Below, piece after piece: positions 20,152 through 54,520 of a DNA stretch of 64,000 nt. Numbering within the stretch: the stretch's first letter is position 1; each line of letters starts with the position of its first letter. Source of the stretch: Desulforamulus ruminis DSM 2154 (lineage in GTDB: Bacteria; Bacillota; Desulfotomaculia; Desulfotomaculales; Desulfotomaculaceae). The DNA is taken from contig NC_015589.1 in the NCBI RefSeq assembly GCF_000215085.1, positions 3,050,120 to 3,114,119 on the forward strand, read 5' to 3'. Position numbers and translations under genes: made by a program. Below the pieces are notes generated by a model. The model was given only the letters and a program-made list of their open reading frames with translations. It did not search any database and was not told where the DNA came from.

Positions 20152-22833
20152 TTACACTATTTTTTCAATCCGAACCGCACAAATTTTAAATTCCGGTATT
20201 TTGGATACCGGGCAATGGGCCGGGTTGGTCAGCTTGTTGATGGCCGCCTCCGGGAAATGGAAGGAGGCAAAGACCATGCCTTGGGGGACTGTTGCCGATA
20301 TATTTACCGACATTTGCACTTCTCCCCGCCGGGAGATCACCCGCACCTTGTCCCCGGTGCACAAATCCAGGGCTTCGGCGTCGCCGGCATGGATGTCCAG
20401 TTTCTCCGACCCGCAGACTTCAACCAGACCGGTGCGCAGGGTCATGGTGCCGGTGTGGTAGTGCTGTAGGCGCCGTCCTGTGTTGAGCAGCAGCGGGTAC
20501 TGGGGGTCCGGCAGTTCTGCGGGGGGCAGATATTGCACCGGGTGAAATTTGCCTTTCCCCCTGCTAAAGGTTTCTTTATGCAGGTAAGGGGTACCGGAAT
20601 GTTCCCTGGAGGTACAGGGCCATTGGATGCCTCCCTGTTCCAGGCGGTCATGGGTGATTCCTCCGTAGGATGGCGTCAGAGAGGCCATTTCTTCAAAGAT
20701 TTCCCGGGGGCTGTTGTAGTTCATAGGATAACCCAGGGCGGCGGACAGGGAACAGAGAATTTCCCAGTCCGCCTTGGCGCCGTTGACCGGTTCAACCGCC
20801 TTCCTTACCCGCTGCACCCTGCGTTCGGTGTTGGTAAAGGTCCCGTCCTTCTCGGCAAAACTGGCCGCCGGGAGGATGACGTCCGCCAGCTTTGCGGTTT
20901 CCGTCAGGAAAAGATCCTGCACCACTAGAAAATCCAGGTTCTTTAGCGCCTTTTCCACGTGATTGGCGTCGGCATCCGACAGCACCGGATTTTCCCCGGC
21001 AATGTACATGGCTTTGATTTTTCCTTGGGAAGCAGCCTCTATCATTTCCGTTGCCGTCAGTCCGGGCTTGCCGTCCAGAGAAACACCCCAGGCCCGGCTG
21101 AACTTGCGGCGGCATTCTTCATCCGTTACCGGTTGGTAGCCGGTAAATACATTGGGCAGGGCTCCCATGTCACAGGCTCCCTGGACGTTATTCTGGCCCC
21201 GCAGGGGGTTGATGCCCGTTGAGGGCTGGCCGATCTGCCCGCAGAGAAGCACCAGATTAGCCGCTGCCAGAACATTATCGGTGCCGCTGACATGCTGGGT
21301 TAAACCCATGGTATATAAAAGGGAGGCTTTTTCCGCCCGGGCATAGCCCCGGGCGGTTTCCCGGATGGTTTGGGCGGGAATGCCCGTCACCTCTTCCGCA
21401 TATTCAGGCGTATATGCCCGGACCCCTTCCCTGAGTTCCTCCAGGCCTTCGCATCGTGCCTGAACGAACTCCCGGTTCCATAGTTCTTCTTCTAAAATAA
21501 CCTGAACCATACTGTTCAGCAGAGCGATATCGGTACCGGGATGCAGTTGCAGGTGTTGCCCGGCCAGTTCCGCCAGTTCGGTCTTCCGGGGATCCAGCAC
21601 CACCAGTTGGGCCCCCTGTTGGACCGCCCTGCGGATACGGTGGGCGATGATGGGATGGGCCTCGGTGGTGTTGGTGCCGATGGCCAGGATAAAGTCCGCC
21701 CCGGCAATTTCATCAATGGAGTTGGTCATAGCCCCGCTCCCCAGTGCTGCCGCCAGACCGGCGACGGTAGGGGCGTGTCAGAGGCGGGCGCAATGGTCAA
21801 TATTGTTGGTCCCAATGACCGCCCGGGCCAGTTTATTTAAAAGATAGTTCTCTTCATTGGTGATGCGGGCTGAGGCCAGTATTCCGACGGAGTCACCGCC
21901 ATGGTTGCTTATGGTTTCTTTAAGCCTCCGGGCGATTTCTTCCAAAGCCTCGTTCCAACCGGCTTCCCGGAGCTGCCCTTCTTTGCGGATCAACGGGCTG
22001 GTTAACCGTTCCGGGTGGTGAATAAAGCGGTAGCCAAATCTTCCCTTTACACACAGGTGCTTCCCGTTAATACCCGAGCGGGCGGCGGTTACACCTACAA
22101 CCCGGCCTTCTTTTACTTGTAAGTTCAGTTGGCAGCCCACGCCGCAGTAAGGGCAGGTGGTGGTAACGGCAGTAAGGTCCCACCTGCGCCCCTGTCCCGC
22201 CATTTGTTTTTCTCCCAGGGCTCCCACCGGGCAAACTTCAAGGCAGGAACCGCAAAAAACGCAGTCGGAGTCCTGCAGGCCGCCGTCTAAAGGAGCCGCC
22301 ACCCGGGCCTGAAAGCCCCGGAAGGCAAAATCCACGGCGCTGCGGCCCACTACTTCTGCGCAAACCCGGACACATTTGCCGCACAGGATGCATTTGTTCA
22401 TATCCCGGACAATAAAGGGATTGCTGTCATCCAGGGGCAGCGAACGGGCATCCCCCGCAAAGCGGCCCTTGCGCACCCCGTACCGGTAAGCGTAGTCCTG
22501 CAGGGCGCAGGCGCCGCATTTTTCACAGGTCATGCAATCCTCCGGGTGATTGGCCAGCAGTAATTCCAGAATGGTGCGCCGGGCCTCCAGAACCCTTGGG
22601 GAATCTGTAAAAACTTCCATCCCCGGCCGGATCTCGGTGACGCAGGAGGCAGGCAGGCTGCCCCAGCCGGCCACCTCCACCACGCAGATGCGGCAGCCGC
22701 CATAGCGGGACAGTTCCGGGTCGTGACAAAAGGTGGGAATGGCTAAGCCCAGCTTCCCGGCAGCCTCCAGGATGGTGCTTCCTTTAGGCACGGACACAGG
22801 CCGGCCATTGATGGTTAATGCAATCTCAGACAT
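20152..22833 (-). CDS. fdhA: selenocysteine formate dehydrogenase, catalytic subunit (cytoplasmic, NAD(P)-linked)
   Basis: Reversible formate/CO2 oxidoreductase subunit, 893 residues if the in-frame TGA at 21778-21780 is read as selenocysteine (residue 352: NNIDHCARL-U-HAPTVAGLAAALG). Upstream and downstream parts are in the same frame and both match the family. Order: [2Fe-2S] ferredoxin domain (Cys in FCHDPELSRYGGCRICVVE), NuoG-type His-Cys3 cluster region, two [4Fe-4S] ferredoxin motifs (CILCGKCVRVC, CVFCGSCLEVCP), a [4Fe-4S] cluster with CPYCGVGCQL, then the molybdo/tungsto-bis-MGD domain. Just after the TGA is a GCC-GGTCT-GGC hairpin, as in known bacterial SECIS. Layout and length resemble my recollection of Moorella FdhA. 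AGGAGG before ATG. Downstream of a NuoF- and a NuoE-like gene in one operon. Confidence 0.95.
21738..21780 (-). promoter_or_regulatory. bacterial SECIS element in fdhA
   Basis: Minus strand: TGA followed within 20 nt by a hairpin whose apical loop is GGTCT closed by CGCC/GGCG, with outer GCCCC/GGGGC pairing possible. The loop matches the GGUCU apex known for the E. coli fdhF SECIS. It should recruit SelB to insert selenocysteine. Confidence 0.8.
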
Positions 22834-22846
22834 TTGGCTCCCCCTC

Positions 22847-24799
22847 CTAAGACCTTACAACTGCCTTGAATTTACAGCGGGTCAAGCAGCTTCCGCAGCG
22901 AATACATTCACTGTGATCAATGACATGGGGCTGTTTTTTCTCCCCGTGGATGGCTTGAACCGGACATATTTTTGTACAGAGGCCGCAGCCCCGGCATTTT
23001 TCCTCGTCAATCCGGTAGCTGACCAGTTCGGAACAAACTCCGGCGGGACAGCGCTTGTCCACAATATGGGCCAGGTATTCCTCCCGAAAATATTTCAGGG
23101 TGGATAACACCGGGTTGGGACAGGCCTGCCCCAGCCCGCACAGGGAGGTGTTTTTTACCACCCGGCAGAGCCTTTCCAGATTGTCCAGGTCTTCCAGGGT
23201 GGCACTGCCCTTGCACATGCGCTCCAGTATTTCCAGCATGCGCTTGGTGCCTTCCCGGCAGGGAGTACACTTGCCGCAGGATTCAGCCTGGGTAAAGGCC
23301 AGGAAGAACCGGGCCACATCCACCATGCAGGTCTCTTCATCCATAACCACCATGCCGCCGGACCCGATGGTGGCTCCGGCAGAAGACAGGGAATCAAAGT
23401 CCACCGGCAGGTCCAGATGCTGGCGGGTCAGGCATCCCCCGGAGGGGCCCCCCAGTTGGACCGCTTTAAACTCTTTGCCCCCCCGGATGCCCCCGCCGGT
23501 TCCAAAAATGATGTCTCTCAGAGGAACGCCCATGGGCACCTCCACCAGGCCGGAGTTGGTTACCGCTCCGCTCAGGGCAAATATTTTGGTGCCGGGGGAT
23601 CCTTCGGTTCCGATTTTTTTGTATTCTTCCGCTCCCAGGCGAATAATTAAAGGCACATTGGCCAGGGTTTCCACATTGTTCAGGACGGTGGGCTGATTCC
23701 ACAAGCCCTTCTCGGTGGAACGGGGAGGCTTCACCCGGGGCATTCCCCGGTTGCCCTCAATGGAGGCCTGAAGGGCCGTGCCTTCCCCACACACAAAGGC
23801 CCCCGCCCCTTCTTTTAAAATAATGTCAAAATCAAAGCCGGAGTTCAAGATATTGCTTCCCAGCAGGCCATATTCCCGGGCTTGTTGAATGGCTGTCTTC
23901 AATCTCCGGATAGCCAGGGGATATTCCGCCCGGCAGTAGATATAACCCATAGCGGCCCCCACAGCATAGCCGGCAATCAGCATTCCTTCCAGTACTGCAT
24001 GGGGGTCTCCTTCCAGCACCGAGCGGTCCATGAAGGCCCCCGGGTCCCCTTCATCGGCATTACAAATAATAAATTTGCGGGTTCCTTCCGCCTTCCTGGC
24101 CGAGGCCCATTTCCTGCCGGTGGGAAACCCGGCTCCGCCCCGCCCCCGCAGTCCTGATTGTTGAATTTCTTCAATCACTTGCTCCGGCGGCAGGCCCTGC
24201 AAAACTTTGACCAGGCTATGGTACCCCCCCGCCGCAACATAATCGCCGATTTGTTCGGGATCAATATTGCCGCAGTTGGCCAGCAGCAGCCTGGTTTGCC
24301 CGGCATAGAAGGGAATTTCCTGAAAGTGAGGGTAATGAATCCCGGAAGTCGGCTCCTGGAAAGTAAGCCGGTCAATAATTTTTCCTTTAACCAGATGCTC
24401 GTCCACAATTTCCTTGGCATCCTCGGGCTGAACCCGGGTATAAAAAACACCCTCGGGTTTGATATGAACAATGGGACCGTTTTCGCAGAAGCCATGACAA
24501 CTGGTCCTTTTAACCCTGACCGTCCCGGTGAGACCGGCCTTTTCTATTGCCTCTGTCAATTGCTCTGCCAGACGACCGGAACCCGATGAGGTACAGCCGG
24601 TTCCGCCGCAGACAATCATTTGCTTTAGACCGTCTTCCCTGTCCACCCTTACCAGACCGGCAAATTGTTCCCTGGCCTCACGGCAGGCTTTATCGGTATG
24701 ACAAAAGGGACCCATGGTCCGGCATTCCACATACCGCCGGCAGGGGGAGCCGGGACGATGGGTGCACTGCCGGCAGCAGGCTTCCATGATATTCTGCAT
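22847..24799 (-). CDS. NuoF/HndC-like flavoprotein subunit of formate dehydrogenase (NAD(P)/FMN)
   Basis: A 650-residue cytoplasmic electron-transfer subunit. Order: a Cys-rich head (residues 8-41, ACCRQCTHRPGSPCRRYVEC and more), a thioredoxin-like [2Fe-2S] domain (about 60-150; VCGGTGCTSSGSG and SCHGFCENGPIV), the NuoF core with NAD-binding GLRGRGGAGFPTGRKW and FMN-binding NADEGDPGAFMDR, the [4Fe-4S] ligands CGKCTPCREGT, and a C-terminal pair of ferredoxin clusters (CRGCGLCTKICP, CIRCGSCLTRC). The same layout occurs in HydB/HndC subunits of electron-bifurcating enzymes, so with the neighbouring genes this may be an NAD(P)- and ferredoxin-dependent formate dehydrogenase. Bifurcation is inference. 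ATG start with GGGAGCGAG. Ahead of fdhA by 13 bp. Confidence 0.92.
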   Translation of the reverse strand: MQNIMEACCRQCTHRPGSPCRRYVECRTMGPFCHTDKACREAREQFAGLVRVDREDGLKQMIVCGGTGCTSSGSGRLAEQLTEAIEKAGLTGTVRVKRTSCHGFCENGPIVHIKPEGVFYTRVQPEDAKEIVDEHLVKGKIIDRLTFQEPTSGIHYPHFQEIPFYAGQTRLLLANCGNIDPEQIGDYVAAGGYHSLVKVLQGLPPEQVIEEIQQSGLRGRGGAGFPTGRKWASARKAEGTRKFIICNADEGDPGAFMDRSVLEGDPHAVLEGMLIAGYAVGAAMGYIYCRAEYPLAIRRLKTAIQQAREYGLLGSNILNSGFDFDIILKEGAGAFVCGEGTALQASIEGNRGMPRVKPPRSTEKGLWNQPTVLNNVETLANVPLIIRLGAEEYKKIGTEGSPGTKIFALSGAVTNSGLVEVPMGVPLRDIIFGTGGGIRGGKEFKAVQLGGPSGGCLTRQHLDLPVDFDSLSSAGATIGSGGMVVMDEETCMVDVARFFLAFTQAESCGKCTPCREGTKRMLEILERMCKGSATLEDLDNLERLCRVVKNTSLCGLGQACPNPVLSTLKYFREEYLAHIVDKRCPAGVCSELVSYRIDEEKCRGCGLCTKICPVQAIHGEKKQPHVIDHSECIRCGSCLTRCKFKAVVRS

Positions 24800-29164: not shown

Positions 29165-32100
29165 TTACGACACCTCCCTGCCGGCCTTCTTAATATTGCA
29201 GAGGAAGGCCTTATATTCCGGAATACTGGTGTTGGGATCGCCCACACTGGGCGTCAGGTCGTTGGCTGTAGCGCCTTTGGCAATACCCATATAACCGAAG
29301 CACCAAGGCATGCCAATTACTTCAACCTCTTTCCCTTCCACATTTAAGGGCACACATACGCCGGAGACGGAAACTTTACAGGTAATCTTGCCCCGGACGG
29401 TTTCGATGACCACATCATCCCCGGTCTTAACCCCGATTTGCTGGGCCAGTTTGGGGGAGATATTGGCAAACATGTGGGCGGATATTTCCGCCAGGGAGGG
29501 GCAGTTACGGGTAACCGCACCGCTCTGATAGTGCTCAATGACCCGGTGGGTAGTGCCCACATAGGGAAATTCTTTACTGCCGGTTTCCGCAATTTTGCTG
29601 AAGTCCCCTTTAAAGCGGACGGTTAAAGGCATATTTTGCTGTCTGGAAACAAGATTCTTAACCGGACTTTCAATGGGCTCGTAGTGTTCGGGCAGGGGCC
29701 CGTCAACCACTCCCTTAACGGCGAAAAGCCTGGCGTGCTCCTCTTCCAGCATGAGGAAAGGAACGGTTTTATCCGGCGGTACCGGAATCGGCTTGCCATT
29801 GGGTTCCGGAGCCGGGTCTGAGGCTTTAAAGTCCGGCACATCCTCGGTAATCCACTGGCCCTGCAGAGCATCCCATTTAATGGGCGCCTTCTTGGGGTTC
29901 CAGGGGTTGCCCGCAGCATCCATGGAGCAACGGTTATAAACAATACGGCGGTTAGCCGGCCAAGCAAAGGCGAATTGCGGGAAAAGCCCCAGCCCGCTTT
30001 TGTCCTTCAACAGGCGACGCTTGGCAGCCACGGTTTTGGCCTCTTTATCTTCCGCCCAGTAACCGCTGTGTATCCAGCAGCCGCAAGCGGTGGAACCATC
30101 GGCGGTCAGCTTGGCAAAGCCCGGCAATACCTGGCCGGTGGCAACGTCATAACCGTTAATTTCCACCGCCACTTGATCAATGTTGGGTTCGTCCTCACCA
30201 GGTATGTCATAGTTCCAGACCATGTTCCGGATGGGTTCCGGGAACTTGCCGCCGCTTTGATACTCTTTTTTCACCGCTTTAAACAACCGGTCGGCAATCC
30301 AGAGATCGCTCTTGGCTTCACCCGGAGGGTTCACTGCCTTGTAGCGGAACTGCAGCCAACGGCCGCTGTTAATGACCGTGCCTTCTTTTTCATAGGACAT
30401 GGCTGCCGGGAAGAAGAATACCTCGGTTTGAATCTTGGCGGGATCCGCTTCCGGCCGGTGCCAGAAAGCCGCGGTCTCGGTTTCAAACAAGTCCACTGCA
30501 ACCAGCCAGTCCAGTTTTTCCATGGCTTTGCGGCCCTGGAAGGCGGACGGTCCGCCCACTGCGGGATTCTGGCCCCAGGCGATCATGCCCTTGATATTTC
30601 CCTGGGACATTTCCGAGAAAATACCCATATGGGAACGCTCCTTGCCGTCGTGCTTGGGCACCCAATCGAAACAAAAATCGTTTTCTTTAGTGGCTTTATT
30701 ACCATACCAGGCCTTTAACATGCTGATCAAAAATTTTCCCCGGTTGGACCAGAAGCTGGTTTTGGGGACATCTTTGTCCAGATAATCCTGCAGCTTGGTA
30801 TGTTTACTGGCATAAATCATCGGGTTATAGCCGGGCAGCAGGTGGTTCAACATGGCAAAATCGGTGGAACCCTGAACATTGGATTCACCCCGTTGGGCAT
30901 TTACACCGCCCCCGGGAATTCCGATATTGCCCAGCAGCAACTGCAGAACGCAAAGAACCCGGCAGTTTTGGGAACCATAGGTATGCTGGGTAATGCCCAT
31001 GGCATAAATCACATTGCCGGCTTTGTCCGGTTTCCCGGTGGAAGCAAACAACTGGCAGGCCTTTTGGAAAGTCTCTTCCGGCATACCGGTAATCTTGCAA
31101 ACGGTCTTCATATCATAACGGCTGACATGCTTTTTCAGGATTTGAAAAACGCAGTTGGGATCCTGCAAGGTGGGGTCCTTTTTAATGTTTTCTTTCTTCA
31201 GGCCGTCCTTGGCCAGGTCCCCTCCCTCCATCTGGTACATCCAGGTATCTAATTTATAACTCTTTTTGCCATTGGTTTCCACAAGGCCCGAAAAAACACC
31301 CTCTTCAAACTTGTATTCCGGGTTCACCAAATAGCTGGCATTGGTATAATTCAGCACATAATCCTTAAAATACAGATCCTTTTCAATTATATAGTTAATC
31401 ATTCCGTTAATAAAAGCAATGTCGGTACCGGGACGCAGGCGGGCGTGGATATCGCTCAGACCGGCCGATTTGGTCAGTCTGGGATCCGCAACAATCAGCT
31501 TAGCCCCCTTGTCCTTAGCCTTCATAATCCATTTCATGGCCTGCGGGTGGTTTTCCGCAGAGTTGGAACCAATCATTAAAAATACATCGGTATTTTTAAA
31601 ATCAATGAAATGGTTGGTCATAACACCCCGTCCAAAAGAAGCAGCCAGACCGGCTACCGTGGAGGAGTGTCAGAGACGGGCGTGGTGCTCAATATTCAGG
31701 AGCCCCCAGGATCGAAACATTTTGTGCAGCAGGTAGTTTTCTTCATTATCCAGGGAGGCGCTGCCAAAGGTAGCGATGCCCGTGGACCGGTTCACCACAA
31801 CACCCTTTTCATCCCTTTCCTGAAAGGACTCGTCCCGGGTTTTTTTCACCCGCTTGGCAACCTCCGAAAGGGCCCAATCCCAGTCTTTTTCTACCCATTC
31901 GGTAGAACCGGGGGCCCTGTAGAGAGGCTTGGTCACCCGCAGTCTGTTGATAACGCGGTCGCCTTTCTTTTCAATGGTATTGTAGGTGTCAATAATAGCA
32001 TTGCCTTTGGAGCAAATGGAGCCTTCATTAATGGGGTGATCCGGGTCTCCTTCACAATAAACAATCTTGTTGTCACTGTTGGAGTATAGAATAATCCCGC

Positions 32101-32284
32101 AACCACAGCCGCAAAAGGCACAAACGGTATAGGTTTCTTTTACCCTTCTGATTTTAGAGGGTAATTTCTCTCCGGAGAATTTCTCGTGGGACTCTTCCGC
32201 CAAAGCAGGCTGGGCCAACAAAGTTAGGCCCGCAGTCCCCAAGCTAATATTTTTTAAAAAATCGCGCCTGTTCATTTTCCTCAT
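29165..32284 (-). CDS. fdnG: selenocysteine formate dehydrogenase catalytic subunit, Tat-exported (FdnG-like)
   Basis: A 1039-residue molybdo/tungstoenzyme when the TGA at 31670-31672 is read as selenocysteine (residue 205: EHHARL-U-HSSTVAGLAASFG). Tat signal at the N-terminus (MNRRDFLKNISLGTAGLTLLAQ), then the [4Fe-4S] motif CAFCGCGCGIILY, the bis-MGD core with GGGVNAQRGESNVQGSTD, and a C-terminal MGD-binding domain. The GCC-GGTCT-GGC hairpin follows the TGA as in fdhA. It acts outside the membrane, oxidising formate and passing electrons through the ferredoxin and NrfD-like subunits to quinone. Downstream of tatA, same operon. A second possible start at residue 4 (MNRRD) would not change the signal. 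Confidence 0.95.
31632..31672 (-). promoter_or_regulatory. bacterial SECIS element in fdnG-like gene
   Basis: Minus strand: after the TGA comes CACTCCTCCACGGT, then hairpin AGCC-GGTCT-GGCT. The same apical loop and the same distance from the TGA are found in fdhA at 21778, although flanking bases differ. Supports recoding as selenocysteine. Confidence 0.8.
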
Positions 32285-32328
32285 GTAACTTTAACCCCCT
32301 CGGTTTACCGGGTTTCTTTCTAACCGGG

Positions 32329-35916: not shown

Positions 35917-36270
35917 CTATCCTTTAGGCCTAAAAACCAGGGCGGCCAGATAGCCAAAGACCACCGCCGCGGTAATTCCACCCGCCGCAGCGCTCAGGGC
36001 ACCCTTAAAGGCTCCTAAAAATCCGTCTTTCCGCACTTCCTCAATGGCGCCTTGGGCCAGCAGATGGCCAAAGCCGCTTAAAGGTACGGTGGCGCCTGCT
36101 CCGGCAAAATCCACCAGGGGCTGGTAGAAGCCCAGGGCGCTGAATATGGCGCCGGTGGTAACAAACCCGACCAGGATATGGCCCGGAGTGATCTTATAAC
36201 TGGTCAGATCCATCAGTAATTGCCCAATCACACAAATGGCTCCGCCCACTAGAAAAGCTTTCATCAGCAT
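35917..36270 (-). CDS. spoVAEB: stage V sporulation protein AEb
   Basis: About 117 residues, integral membrane protein with about four helices, containing LVGGAICVIGQLLMDLTSYK and PLVDFAGAGATVPLSGFGH, closely similar in pattern to SpoVAC upstream. Part of the dipicolinate channel in the forespore membrane. ATG 36270 (or 36264) follows AAGGAGGGG; the longer frame to 36309 only overlaps spoVAD. Confidence 0.93.
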   Translation of the reverse strand: MLMKAFLVGGAICVIGQLLMDLTSYKITPGHILVGFVTTGAIFSALGFYQPLVDFAGAGATVPLSGFGHLLAQGAIEEVRKDGFLGAFKGALSAAAGGITAAVVFGYLAALVFRPKG

Positions 36271-36283
36271 TTTCCACCCCTCC

Positions 36284-37297
36284 TTAATTTGCCTGCACGA
36301 CCACCCCATGACCGATTCCCGGAATACTTTCCCCCTGCTGGCAACTGCAGGGGGACAATAAAGCGCCGGTTCCTAAACCAAAGAAATTTTTTAATCTTCC
36401 TGCTTTCATTTCCTTTAATAAATAACCGCAGGTTACCGTAGCTGAACAAGCGCACCCGCTTCCCCCGGCATGGGTATCCTGGCTTTCATCAAAAATCAGC
36501 ACGCCACAGTCCTGATAATTTGTCCCAAGTACAATTCCCTGCTGCTCCGCCAACCGGATGACCAGTTCCCGCCCATATTTGCCCAAATCACCGGTAATGA
36601 TTAATTCGTAAGTTTCCGGCGGTTGGTCTATGTCTTTCAGGTGCCGGACAATGGTATCCGCCGCTGCCGGAGCCATGGCAGCTCCCATATTGTTGGGATC
36701 TCCTTCTCCGTAGTCCACCACTCTGCCGATAATGGCGTGGGTTACCCTGGGACCCTGGCCGGTTTTCCCCAGCACCACGGCGCCGGACCCGGTTACCGTC
36801 CACTGGGCGGACATGGGTCGCTGTACCCCCTGCTCGGTGGGAAAGCGGTACTGTCTTTCCGCCGTGGCATAATGGCTGCAGGCACCTAACAATACGTACC
36901 GGGCAAAACCCCCGTCAATGAGCATGCTGCCCAGCGCCAAACCCTCGTACATGGTGGAGCAGGCCCCGTACAATCCCATAAAGGGGATGCCCAGGCTCCT
37001 GGCTGTAAAATTGGCGGCAATAATCTGGTTGCTGAGATCCCCGGCCAGTAAAAAATCCATGTCCGCCGGCTTTAACCCGGCTTTGGACAGGGCCAGTTCC
37101 ATGGTCTCCTGCAAAATTTTTTGTTCCGCCTTCTCCCAGGTTTTTTCCCCGTAGTACATGTCGCCGGCAATCCGATCAAAATAATCCTTCAGGGGCCCTT
37201 CCCCTTCCTTGGGCCCTACAATGGAAGCAGCAGACAGAATCACCGGCGGATTGGCAAAGGCAATGGTTTGTCTGCCAATTTTTTTTGCAGCCCCGAT
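36284..37297 (-). CDS. spoVAD: stage V sporulation protein AD, probable ATC start
   Basis: Thiolase-fold protein of the SpoVA complex that binds dipicolinic acid; 337 residues from ATC 37297, as long as B. subtilis SpoVAD. The first ordinary start codon in frame (GTG 37243) would delete the conserved KKIGRQTIAFANPP N-terminus. Between the spoVAC stop and that motif there is no ATG, GTG or TTG in frame, but AAGGAGG lies 9 bp before ATC. Family stretches include ILSAASIVGPKEGEGPL, YGACSTMYEGLALGS and LITGDLGKYG. The N-terminal codons include an A8 tract, so a slippage event or sequence error is the alternative. Confidence 0.9.
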   Translation of the reverse strand: MGAAKKIGRQTIAFANPPVILSAASIVGPKEGEGPLKDYFDRIAGDMYYGEKTWEKAEQKILQETMELALSKAGLKPADMDFLLAGDLSNQIIAANFTARSLGIPFMGLYGACSTMYEGLALGSMLIDGGFARYVLLGACSHYATAERQYRFPTEQGVQRPMSAQWTVTGSGAVVLGKTGQGPRVTHAIIGRVVDYGEGDPNNMGAAMAPAAADTIVRHLKDIDQPPETYELIITGDLGKYGRELVIRLAEQQGIVLGTNYQDCGVLIFDESQDTHAGGSGCACSATVTCGYLLKEMKAGRLKNFFGLGTGALLSPCSCQQGESIPGIGHGVVVQAN

Positions 37298-37312
37298 ACC
37301 GCTCTCCCTCCT

Positions 37313-37780
37313 TTATAATGAGATAATGTATGAAATCATTCCCGCCACCCAGGCTGTGACAATCCCAAAGACCAGCACCGGTCCGGCAATGGTAAACAAT
37401 CTGGCCCCAACGCCAAAAACCATGCCCTCGCTGCGAAACTCCATGGCCGGTGCAACCATGGAATTGGCAAAACCCGTAATGGGAACAATGGTTCCTGCCC
37501 CGGCATATTTGGCAATTTCATCATAAAGGCCCAGGCCGGTTAAAAAAGCAGCCACAAACACCAGAACCGCTGAAGTGGCCAAACCCGCATCCTGCAGCCC
37601 CAGTCCCCGGCCTGTAAAAAAATCCGTTAAAAGCTGTCCGCCGGCACAGATGGCGCCCCCAAATAAAAAGGCCAGAACTACATTTTTAAGCAGCGTGGGT
37701 TTGGGATTAACCTCCTGAACCAGTTTTTGATATTCTTTTTGATTCATCTCCGATGGATCAAAGGAATGAATTTTATCCAT
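37313..37780 (-). CDS. spoVAC: stage V sporulation protein AC
   Basis: A 155-residue membrane protein: hydrophilic N-terminus (MDKIHSFDPSEMNQKEYQ), then about four to five helices with FLFGGAICAGGQLLTDFF and KYAGAGTIVPITGFANSM. SpoVAC is the mechanosensitive pore of the dipicolinate channel. ATG 37780 follows GAAGGGAGGG; a frame to 37852 lacks a ribosome site. First spoVA gene here, after sigF. Confidence 0.94.
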   Translation of the reverse strand: MDKIHSFDPSEMNQKEYQKLVQEVNPKPTLLKNVVLAFLFGGAICAGGQLLTDFFTGRGLGLQDAGLATSAVLVFVAAFLTGLGLYDEIAKYAGAGTIVPITGFANSMVAPAMEFRSEGMVFGVGARLFTIAGPVLVFGIVTAWVAGMISYIISL

Positions 37781-37878: not shown

Positions 37879-38661
37879 TTAACTCCCCGTTGGGGTTAGC
37901 AATTCTTTTAATTTTCGCAGGGCCTGCCGTTCCAGCCGGGATACTTGAACCTGGGAAAGTCCCAGGCGAAGGGCTACTTCGGACTGGGTTTTATCTTCAA
38001 AAAACCTCCATAAAATAATCTGCCGGTCCCTCTCGGGAAGTTCAACCAGCAACTGCTTTACGGCCAGTTTTTCCAGCCAGGGAGAATCGCCGTCTTCTTC
38101 ACTGCTTAACTGATCCAGAATATAAATGGGGTCCCCGTCATCCTGGTGCAGGGTCTCATAAATGGAGGTGGGGGTCTGGGCGGCCTCCAGAGCGCTCACC
38201 ACTTCTTCCCGGCAGAAGCCCAGTTCCTTGGCGATCTCATTAATGGAAGGGTCCCTGCCCAGCCTGGCGGTTAAACGATCCCGGGCCTGCTGTATTTTAT
38301 AAGCGGTTTCCTTCAGGGAGCGGCTTACCTTCACGGGATTATCGTCCCTGAGAAAACGTCTGATTTCTCCTATAATCATGGGCACCGCGTAGGTTGAAAA
38401 TTTTACATCATAAGACAAATCAAACTTATCAATGGCTTTCATCAGCCCGATACAGCCGATCTGGAACAAATCTTCCAGCTCGTAACCCCGGTTGTTAAAT
38501 CGCTGTACCAGGTTAAACACCAGCTTTAAATTACAGTTTACCAGTCTTTCCCTGGCATCTGCATCTCCGGCCTGGGCCTTTTTAAGCAGACTCCTCATTT
38601 CCTTGTCGCTCAGCAGGGGAAACCGGGGCAGATTCATTTCCAAAAGCCTTGTGGAACTCAT
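37879..38661 (-). CDS. sigF: RNA polymerase sporulation sigma factor F
   Basis: A 260-residue forespore sigma factor. Region 2 (ARERLVNCNLKLVFNLVQRF; GCIGLMKAIDKFDLSYDVKF), region 3 (INEIAKELGFCREEV) and region 4 with the helix-turn-helix (TQSEVALRLGLSQVQVSRLE) are present. ATG 38661 follows GAGGCGGG; the frame upstream overlaps spoIIAB and is not used. Third gene of the spoIIA operon, controlled by SpoIIAA/SpoIIAB, and expected to switch on the spoVA genes that follow. Confidence 0.96.
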   Translation of the reverse strand: MSSTRLLEMNLPRFPLLSDKEMRSLLKKAQAGDADARERLVNCNLKLVFNLVQRFNNRGYELEDLFQIGCIGLMKAIDKFDLSYDVKFSTYAVPMIIGEIRRFLRDDNPVKVSRSLKETAYKIQQARDRLTARLGRDPSINEIAKELGFCREEVVSALEAAQTPTSIYETLHQDDGDPIYILDQLSSEEDGDSPWLEKLAVKQLLVELPERDRQIILWRFFEDKTQSEVALRLGLSQVQVSRLERQALRKLKELLTPTGS

Positions 38662-38677
38662 TGGCAACCCGCCTCTA

Positions 38678-39124
38678 CTAATTTGCCCTGGCTCTGGCAC
38701 CCCGAATACCAATATTTTTAAACATGGTAATGGTTGTGCCCACTCCTTTTTGGGATTCAACATTGATACGATCACTAAATGACTGCATAAAAACAAAGCC
38801 AAGGCCCATTCTCTCCGGATCGGTAGAGAAGGCGGGCTGCATGGCCAGTTTAATATCCGCAATGCCGTTGCCGCAGTCCTTGATCTGAATCTCCAGGCCC
38901 TCTTTATAAATGGTAACGGTCAGATAAACAATTTTATCCGGCTTGTTCCTGTAGCCGTGGATAATGGCGTTTCCAACAGCCTCGGAAACCGCTACTTTAA
39001 TTTCTTCCAACTCAGGCAGGGTACAATCCAGTTGCGAAGCAAAGGCAGCCACCGCCACCCGGGCAAAGGCCACATTTTCCGGAATGCTGTAGAATTCTAA
39101 GGAAAAACGATTAAGCACCTGCAC
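38678..39124 (-). CDS. spoIIAB: anti-sigma F factor SpoIIAB
   Basis: A 148-residue GHKL-type serine kinase that binds SigF and phosphorylates SpoIIAA. ATP-binding motifs: EIKVAVSEAVGNAIIHGYR (N box), KDCGNGIADI (G1) and ERMGLGFVFM (G2). GTG 39124, 8 bp after AAGGAG, gives nearly the same length as the B. subtilis protein (146); the frame extends to TTG 39145 without a site. Overlaps nothing, 13 bp after spoIIAA. Confidence 0.95.
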   Translation of the reverse strand: MQVLNRFSLEFYSIPENVAFARVAVAAFASQLDCTLPELEEIKVAVSEAVGNAIIHGYRNKPDKIVYLTVTIYKEGLEIQIKDCGNGIADIKLAMQPAFSTDPERMGLGFVFMQSFSDRINVESQKGVGTTITMFKNIGIRGARARAN

Positions 39125-51983: not shown

Positions 51984-53312
51984 CTATTCAAATTGGAAAA
52001 CAGAGCTGCCGGACACTTTGCCCAGTAAAATATTACCCTGGGCAGGGGGGGCGCCGTTGATGGTAAAGGCTTGTTGAATCATCTGTTCCACGGCAGTCAA
52101 ATCCATATCCTTTTGGGCATGAAGATCTGCCAGGGTTTCCCCGGCTGAAATTTTGTCGCCGATCTTCTTTTTCAGCACAATGCCCACCGCAAGATCAATA
52201 ACGTCCTCCTTGGTAGCCCGTCCCGCGCCCAAAGCCATAGCTGCCAGGCCGATTTGTTCCGCCTGGATTTCGGCAATATACCCGTCAAGCTTTGCCTGCA
52301 CCGGATAAAGAACCGCTGCCGCGGGTAAAAGTTCCTCCCGGTCCGCCACTTCCGGATTCCCTCCTTGGGCCGCCACGAATTCTTTAAATTTATTCAGAGC
52401 AGCCCCGGAATCAATGATCTGCTCCAGTCGGGTGCGGGCGGCGGGCGGGTCTTCCGCCATCCCGGCCAGTACCAGCATCTCACTGCCCAACTGCAGGCAT
52501 AGTTCCCGGAGGTCCTCCGGCCCTTGTCCCTTCAAGGTGGCAATGGCCTCCCGCACTTCCAGGGCATTGCCCACGGCATAACCCAGGGGTTGGTCCATAT
52601 TGGTTACCAGGGCCACGGTTTTTCGTCCTACCTGGTTGCCGATATCCACCATGGTCCGGGCCAGGTTAAAAGCATCCTCCAGCTTTTTCATAAAGGCGCC
52701 GCTGCCCACCTTCACATCCAGGACAATGGCGTCGGCCCCCGCAGCAATTTTTTTGCTCATGACGGAAGCGGCAATCAAGGGGATGCTGTCCACGGTGGCG
52801 GTCACATCCCGCAAGGCGTAAAGCTTTTTATCGGCGGGAGCCAGGTGCCCGGTCTGAGCCACCACCGCCAGATTGATCCGCCGGACCTGTTCCAAAAAGC
52901 TCCGGTTATCCATGGAAACCCGGAAGCCCGGGATGGCCTCCAGTTTATCGATGGTTCCTCCGGTATGCCCCAGCCCCCGGCCGGACATTTTAGCTACCGG
53001 GACACCGGCAGCAGCCACCAGCGGGCCAAGCACCAGGGTGGTTTTGTCTCCCACTCCGCCGGTGCTGTGCTTATCCACTTTCACTCCCGGCAGGGAGGAT
53101 AAATCCGCCCGATCGCCGGAACGGGCCATGGCCAAGGTTAAATCCGCCGTTTCCTCCGGTTCCAGTCCTTGAAAAAAGATCGCCATAGTCAGGGCGGCTG
53201 CCTGGTAATCCGGCACATCTCCCCGGGTGTATCCCTGTATGAAAAAATCAATTTCAGCGGCGCTTAGTGTACCGCCCCGCCTTTTTTTCAGTATGATATC
53301 GTACATGCGCAT
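51984..53312 (-). CDS. pdp: pyrimidine-nucleoside phosphorylase
   Basis: A 442-residue enzyme that splits thymidine, uridine and deoxyuridine with phosphate. N-terminus [20 protein letters not shown]; phosphate-binding [16 protein letters not shown]; the family signature around [21 protein letters not shown]-terminal domain with NILLGKVSG end. ATG with AAAGAAGG upstream. It follows deoB in one operon, so the released pentose phosphate passes directly to phosphopentomutase. Confidence 0.95.
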
Positions 53313-53338
53313 TGATCGTACCTTCTTTCCGGCCGGAC

Positions 53339-54520
53339 TTATAGAAGAATCTTCGGGGCAAAGCTGGTTCCTGTTTTAAAGGGAACCCCGAAAAAATCTC
53401 CCAGGGTGGCGGCCACATCCGCAAAGGAGGACCGGATGCCCAGGTTAACTCCGCCTTTGACCGGTGCTCCAAACACCAACAGCGGTACATATTCCCTGCT
53501 GTGATCGGTGCTGGGCGTGGTGGGATCGCAGCCGTGATCGGCGGTGATCAGCAGCACCTCCTGGGGCAGCATGGCGGCCAATATTTCCGGCAGCCGTCGG
53601 TCAAAATCCTCCAGGGCGTTGGCATAGCCCCGGGCGTCGTTGCGGTGACCGTAAAGGGAATCATATTCCACCAGATTGGCCATGATCAGGCCTTCCGGAT
53701 TGGTTCGCATAAAGCGGAGGGTCTGGTCCACCCCATCCATATTGTCCCGGGTGGTAACCTTTTCGGAAACACCCTGCCCGGCAAAAATATCATAGATCTT
53801 GCCTACCCCCATGGTCTTAATTCCCGCCTCCTGCAGGGACACCAAAAGATTGGGCACCGGCGGGGTCACGGCATAATCATGCCGGTTGCTGGTGCGTTTA
53901 AAGGAGCCGGGCTGCCCCAGGAAAGGACGGGCAATTACGCGCCCCACCTGGTGTTCGTCAACCAGCATTTCCCGGGCGATTTGGCACATGCGGTAGAGTT
54001 CTTCCAGGGGAATCACCTCTTCGTGGGCGGCAATTTGAAAGACGCTGTCCGCCGAGGTATAAACAATGGGCCGTCCCGTTGACATATGTTCCCTGCCCAG
54101 TTCTTCAATGATCTGAGTTCCGGAAGCCACCACATTGCCCAGGGATTTCCGGCCGATTCTTTTTTCAAACTCCTCAATCAACTCCCGGGGAAATCCCTGA
54201 GGGTAGGTCCGGAAAGGTTTCTCTAAAATGATCCCCGCCATTTCCCAGTGGCCGGTGGTGGTATCCTTGCCCGGTGAAGTCTCGGCCATTTTACCGTAGG
54301 CTGCCCGCGGCTGAGGCACCGGAGGAACTCCTTCGACGTCCAGGATGTTGCCAAGACCCAACTGTCCGAGATTGGGCAGCTTTAACCCTTTTACGGCCTT
54401 GGCCACGTTGGCCAGCGTATTGCTTCCGGTGTCGCCGTAATCCGCCGCATCGGGCAATTCGCCAACGCCTACGCTGTCCAAAATAATAACGGTAACGCGC
54501 TTTATTTTCTTCTCCAACAA
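53339..54520 (-). CDS. deoB: phosphopentomutase
   Basis: A 393-residue alkaline-phosphatase-fold enzyme that converts (deoxy)ribose 1-phosphate to 5-phosphate. Metal-binding motifs: [20 protein letters not shown] with Asp at the N-terminus, the phospho-acceptor Thr in [11 protein letters not shown], and [19 protein letters not shown] near the C-terminus. TTG 54520 start with AAGGGGTG. Between xerD and pdp, as in many Firmicutes. Confidence 0.96.

Follow-up and report, generated by a model that had tools for sequence, protein, structure and literature searches.

A putative ATC start codon of spoVAD in Desulforamulus ruminis and the retention of weak start codons across the genus

The textbook gene with an AUH start (AUU, AUA or AUC) is infC, which regulates itself through IF3. 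In Escherichia coli, the weak AUU start of pcnB reportedly limits the amount of protein, as is proposed here for spoVAD. To our knowledge, few non-AUG starts conserved across species have been described. In Staphylococcus aureus, AUU and AUA starts behind a strong Shine-Dalgarno sequence give about 10% of the expression obtained from AUG in poor medium (PMC13009471). In Streptomyces, IF3 represses sigR at its GTC start, which sets the SigR:RsrA ratio (PMC5472188). As for the SpoVA proteins, a study of Bacillus anthracis describes two spoVA loci (spoVA1 and spoVA2) that have unequal roles and a common core of the C, D and Eb subunits, the D subunit sitting like a plug on the channel (PMC13059800).

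The start site of sigF-linked spoVAD in D. ruminis

D. ruminis is a sulfate reducer that forms spores. The gene considered here lies in a window of 64,000 nucleotides, which is the whole stretch of DNA analysed, between spoVAC and spoVAEb. The features of the locus, in coordinates of the window, are:

37879 to 38763, minus strand: sigF, upstream of the spoVA genes (TIGR02885, 353.8 bits, cut-off 321.45); its start, ATG 38763, was picked by Shine-Dalgarno score alone
37313 to 37780, minus strand: spoVAC, from ATG 37780 to TAA 37315-37313 (TIGR02838, 183.6 bits, cut-off 164)
37307 to 37313, minus strand: Shine-Dalgarno sequence AAGGAGG, which overlaps the stop codon of spoVAC and is separated by 9 nt from the ATC; duplex energy with the 16S tail -12.8 kcal/mol
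36284 to 37297, minus strand: spoVAD, 337 aa counted from the ATC, stop included, assigned by family profiles and structures
37295 to 37297, minus strand: ATC, the proposed spoVAD start codon, at the position homologous to the spoVAD start of relatives
37279 to 37286, minus strand: A8 tract, in the Lys-Lys codons; a slippery site is not conserved here
37241 to 37243, minus strand: GTG at codon 19, the first in-frame standard start, rejected as the actual start; -0.4 kcal/mol
35917 to 36270, minus strand: spoVAEb, from ATG 36270 (TIGR02839, 150.8 bits, cut-off 131.1)

The product belongs to the SpoVAD family, with 494.9 bits to TIGR02845 (cut-off 411.8) and 518.4 bits to NF006160 (cut-off 402). 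In D. ruminis, no ATG, GTG or TTG is found in frame from the spoVAC TAA to the KKIGRQT motif, and a scan of all frames found no standard start before the A tract. The codons that follow ATC 37297 are GGG GCT GCA AAA AAA ATT GGC. Residues 2-332 of the chain in PDB entries 3LMA and 3LM6 align with residues 5-335 of spoVAD, numbered from the ATC; since these SpoVAD structures align from their residue 2 at residue 5, the normal start must be at most a few codons away from the ATC. In codons 4-20 the mismatches at codon positions 1/2/3 are 0.25/0.17/0.57, and in the remainder of the gene 0.19/0.12/0.51, a pattern by which substitution in the N-terminal codons is of the coding type. Initiation of spoVAD at ATC 37297 is strongly supported at the level of sequence.

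A start at ATC had been proposed in a first-pass annotation of this DNA, and the position of the codon, the strength and spacing of the Shine-Dalgarno sequence, the protein families, the structures and six relatives agree with it. Rescanning also bore out that no ATG, GTG or TTG precedes the conserved N-terminus in frame, GTG 37243 being the first; the placement of AAGGAGG 9 bp before ATC 37297 was verified, and the recomputed length from the ATC is again 337 aa. The A8 run had been placed at 37278-37285, one base off its actual coordinates.

Start codons inside and outside the genus

Of nine Desulforamulus genomes compared, seven carry the sigF-linked spoVAD. The two others are G003, a single contig that is 99% complete and has the second copy only, and G007, which is 72% complete and whose paralog has an in-frame TAG. 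At the homologous position the codon is ATC in D. ruminis, ATT in D. putei, ATA in four genomes (G006, G004, G002 and G005, the last being D. aeronauticus) and CTG in G008, and in 7/7 these weak codons sit 15-21 nt before the G of the GxQT motif. None of the seven has a standard in-frame start at or before the conserved N-terminus. Six of the seven have an AUH codon at the homologous start behind a strong Shine-Dalgarno sequence, the seventh having CTG. A TGA lies in frame one codon ahead of the ATA (TGA NNN ATA) in G006, G005 and G002, and a TAG immediately 5' of the CTG in G008; because of these stops, the start in the four genomes cannot be further upstream. In G008 an indel has shifted the ATA of its nearest relatives out of frame, and the CTG is the remaining start candidate, the least certain of the calls.

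The duplex energies of the Shine-Dalgarno sequences at the weak starts of the seven genus members range from -12.3 to -14.8 kcal/mol, and those at the first downstream standard codons from -0.3 to -7.1. These values bear on the reading that a sequencing error hides a standard start, or that the gene is truncated and truly begins at GTG 37243, which is indeed the first standard codon. This GTG, however, has no Shine-Dalgarno sequence, and a start there would drop 18 residues, most of which are aligned with the SpoVAD structures. Moreover, the first standard codon is not stable among relatives, falling at codons 19, 47, 26, 9, 11, 46 and 10. As seven different genomes agree on the missing standard start, the sequence error that the first-pass annotation had allowed for is rejected, and we give this reading practically no credence.

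The same annotation had raised slippage on the A tract. A programmed frameshift, with a standard start in another frame and a slip on the tract, would be in keeping with the A7-A8 run among the first codons and with the standard codons out of frame near the site, each seen in five of the seven genus members. However, the tract reads A8, A8, A7, A7, A7, A6 and none over the seven genomes (A6 in G004, no run in G008), the nearby upstream GTGs coincide with the Shine-Dalgarno sequence itself, and outgroups with a standard start carry the same Lys-Lys run. Frameshifting is rejected as very improbable, because the tract is not conserved and because, in D. ruminis (G000) and D. putei (G001), it is preceded near the site by no standard start, whatever the frame. 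D. ruminis, where both genes are in the same frame with a single TAA between them, could suggest that SpoVAD arises exclusively by readthrough from spoVAC or as a fusion with its product. Over the seven genomes, however, the spoVAC stop has offsets of 0, 2, 1, 1, 0, 2 and 1, with a gap of 13-28 nt, and a separate Shine-Dalgarno sequence precedes every spoVAD. As the stop occurs in all three relative frames, this reading is also rejected and seems to us scarcely conceivable.

Outside the genus and within the order, 52/52 loci (51 genomes) have a standard start at the homologous codon: ATG in 21, GTG in 7 and TTG in 24. These comprise 50 loci from 49 genomes, taken at E <= 1e-125, a threshold that excludes more distant spoVAD copies, plus two added by hand, in G010 and in G021, where the gene is split. 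The start count covers spoVAD outside the genus other than that of the 52% type. In 49 of the 50 loci the distance from the start to the GxQT motif is exactly 21 nt, and in G012 it is 24 nt. A further 13 of 13 relatives, named or MAG, have a standard spoVAD start (16 loci minus three repeating genomes already counted). The first-pass annotation had named a standard start in related genomes as what would speak against a start at ATC; as such starts are confined to loci outside the genus (0/7 inside it), they date the change and do not refute it.

Among the standard codons of the sister families, the weaker TTG is frequent in spoVAD (24/52, against 3/31 for spoVAC and 4/31 for spoVAEb), which hints at a broader trend. 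In a comparison that ignores shared ancestry and in which the spoVAC and spoVAEb starts were chosen by Shine-Dalgarno score, TTG was found in 16/32 spoVAD and in 7/62 spoVAC plus spoVAEb (Fisher p 8e-5).

In a tree of 39 SpoVAD proteins the seven genus members group together with a support of 99. Since they form one clade, the loss of the standard start counts as one event, and the simplest history would be that the standard codon was lost once, at the origin of the genus, with at least three later changes among weak codons. The ancestor of Desulforamulus probably passed from a standard start to an AUH codon (ATC, ATT or ATA), after which the weakness was kept while the codon drifted. A weak start is retained across species in all seven genomes that have the copy, at divergences where dS is mostly saturated; one pair, G005 and G002, is 97% identical. 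The comparison strongly supports the position of the spoVAD start and shows its retention as a weak codon over the genus. A codon class that is kept with a codon that varies is how retained weakness, rather than one retained codon, would be expected to look.

Neighbouring genes, the second spoVA locus and the translation machinery

In the seven genus members both spoVAC and spoVAEb start with ATG (7/7 each); for the spoVAEb of L005 the Shine-Dalgarno picker gave a TTG beside the ATG, and it was counted as ATG. A second complete spoVAC-AD-AEb locus is present in 9/9 genomes of the genus (L002 at G000:C1:2625357-2626343 in D. ruminis), and its paralogous spoVAD, which is 49-54% identical to the sigF-linked copy, starts with ATG in all nine. 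The spoVAD of the second locus evolves more slowly than the sigF-linked gene, whose dN is the higher in 20/21 matched pairs (mean 0.169 vs 0.107). Outside the genus, genomes with two copies retain standard starts (TTG in G030, G100 and G099, ATG in G036), so that a second spoVA locus alone is not sufficient for a weak start.

A serious rival to our explanation, which we regard as possible and on balance unlikely, is a non-adaptive weakening: given a second spoVA locus, the good start of the sigF-linked copy would have been lost by drift, and the copy would be on its way to being lost. The AUH start would then give low but sufficient protein and would not be under selection; the ATC start is common to this account and to ours, and the reason for its retention differs. 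The complete second locus throughout the genus, the higher dN of the sigF-linked copy and the absence of this copy from G003 are all in its favor. However, in 7/7 the frame is open, the Shine-Dalgarno sequence is strong and purifying selection on the sigF-linked gene, judged from dN of 0.015-0.224 with dS mostly saturated, is strong, and the neighboring spoVAC and spoVAEb retain their ATG. Moreover, one A-to-G change would turn ATA back into ATG, and no ATA lineage has undergone it. As third-base drift alone would leave no ATG with an estimated probability of about 0.25 (third-base G use 0.14-0.36), selection for a weak spoVAD start is plausible, not proven.

The comparison with infC made in the first-pass annotation proved apt, as this gene starts with ATT in 8/9 genomes of the genus (L074-L081), the ninth match being partial. 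A Shine-Dalgarno sequence of the GGAGGTGA type precedes the infC ATT in 8/9 genus genomes, and the infC duplex energies are -15.2 to -20.1. A background screen took in 65 genes with conservation in at least three relatives; 35 of them lie in the window and 30 in a region of 60 kb around infC. Conservation upstream of the first standard start was found in 11/65, and when the flagged genes were read individually only spoVAD and infC had a non-standard start. The other flagged genes were two formate dehydrogenases split by TGA and seven in which, as judged by eye, the extension contains an ATG or ends with one; the gene at 51984-53375 has a weak Shine-Dalgarno sequence, and its family profile also starts at the ATG. 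Since the screen spans about 3% of the genome, further non-standard starts are possible elsewhere.

Two observations concern the formate dehydrogenases themselves. The gene for a formate dehydrogenase-N alpha subunit (29165-32290, minus strand) has an in-frame TGA at 31670-31672 that is kept in five relatives and is very likely a selenocysteine codon. In a second alpha gene (20152-22854, minus strand) the family match starts directly after the TGA at 21778-21780, which is likely to be a selenocysteine codon too.

No unusual initiator tRNA that reads AUH was found in the nine genomes. A stem pattern gave 34 places, of which 22 were checked with ARAGORN; every checked site that is a tRNA has the anticodon CAT, and the only fitting anticodon (TAT, in G006) is not in a tRNA. 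The 12 places outside the ARAGORN check have CAT or anticodons unable to read AUH. Likewise, no unusual anti-Shine-Dalgarno sequence was seen, the standard 16S tail with CCTCC being present in 7/9 genomes; in the other two, G001 and G002, the tail was not matched, perhaps because rRNA is missing from the drafts. Inspection of start-region folding by eye revealed no shared structure.

Proposed mechanism and comparison with known systems

We propose that the strong Shine-Dalgarno sequence over the spoVAC stop would place the ribosome at ATC 37297, which the initiator tRNA would read as formyl-methionine. Since IF3 disfavors such codons, the yield of spoVAD should be clearly below that of a gene with an AUG start; a lowered SpoVAD level is likely on this analysis, and discrimination by IF3 is probably the route to it. 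By analogy with the known cases, the weak start would lower SpoVAD, which sits like a plug on the dipicolinic acid channel, relative to SpoVAC and SpoVAEb or, alternatively, would lower this SpoVA complex relative to the complex of the second locus. The likely setting would be one of dosage, given a second complete spoVA locus with an ATG-started spoVAD. We infer the low yield, the dependence on IF3 and the dosage reason. Taken as a whole, the explanation of an ATC-initiated spoVAD with reduced yield, a weak start retained genus-wide and a dosage setting appears to us highly probable.

It is also conceivable, and in our opinion quite doubtful, that the weak start works as a developmental gate, with SpoVAD made in quantity only once IF3 activity drops in the forespore. 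In that case the loading of the spore would be tied to the state of the forespore translation machinery, and the AUU-started infC, which encodes IF3, and spoVAD would form a linked pair, the gate being kept while the codon varies among species. The spoVAD start offers a clean test of whether the weakness of a start codon sets the subunit ratios of the dipicolinic acid channel, and of IF3 action in forespores. In practical terms, an annotation pipeline that accepts only ATG, GTG and TTG would trim 8 to 46 residues from SpoVAD in the seven genomes.

Searches of the open-licence literature, on non-canonical starts and on the start codon of spoVAD, listed no case of a conserved non-canonical spoVAD start. 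The nearest parallel is infC, which like spoVAD combines a strong Shine-Dalgarno sequence with an AUH start, and does so in the same genus. However, infC is autoregulated via IF3, whereas SpoVAD is a protein without a known role in translation, and infC holds ATT in the genus while the spoVAD codon varies between ATC, ATT, ATA and CTG. In the case of B. anthracis, the likeness to Desulforamulus lies in the presence of two spoVA loci and in their core, and the abstract of that study makes no mention of a start-codon effect (PMC13059800). Streptomyces sigR resembles spoVAD in that an uncommon start codon occurs in an operon with products that are required in ratio; unlike spoVAD, it uses a GTC codon and belongs to an actinobacterium, and both the ratio to RsrA and the effect of IF3 are demonstrated there (PMC5472188). 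In S. aureus, non-canonical starts with strong Shine-Dalgarno sequences are described for cvfC1 (AUU), ccpN (AUA) and citZ (AUA), of which cvfC1 and ccpN are conserved (PMC13009471). These are not sporulation genes, and their yield was measured, whereas that of spoVAD is predicted. Non-canonical starts are thus known as a class, and the conserved spoVAD case is an addition to them.
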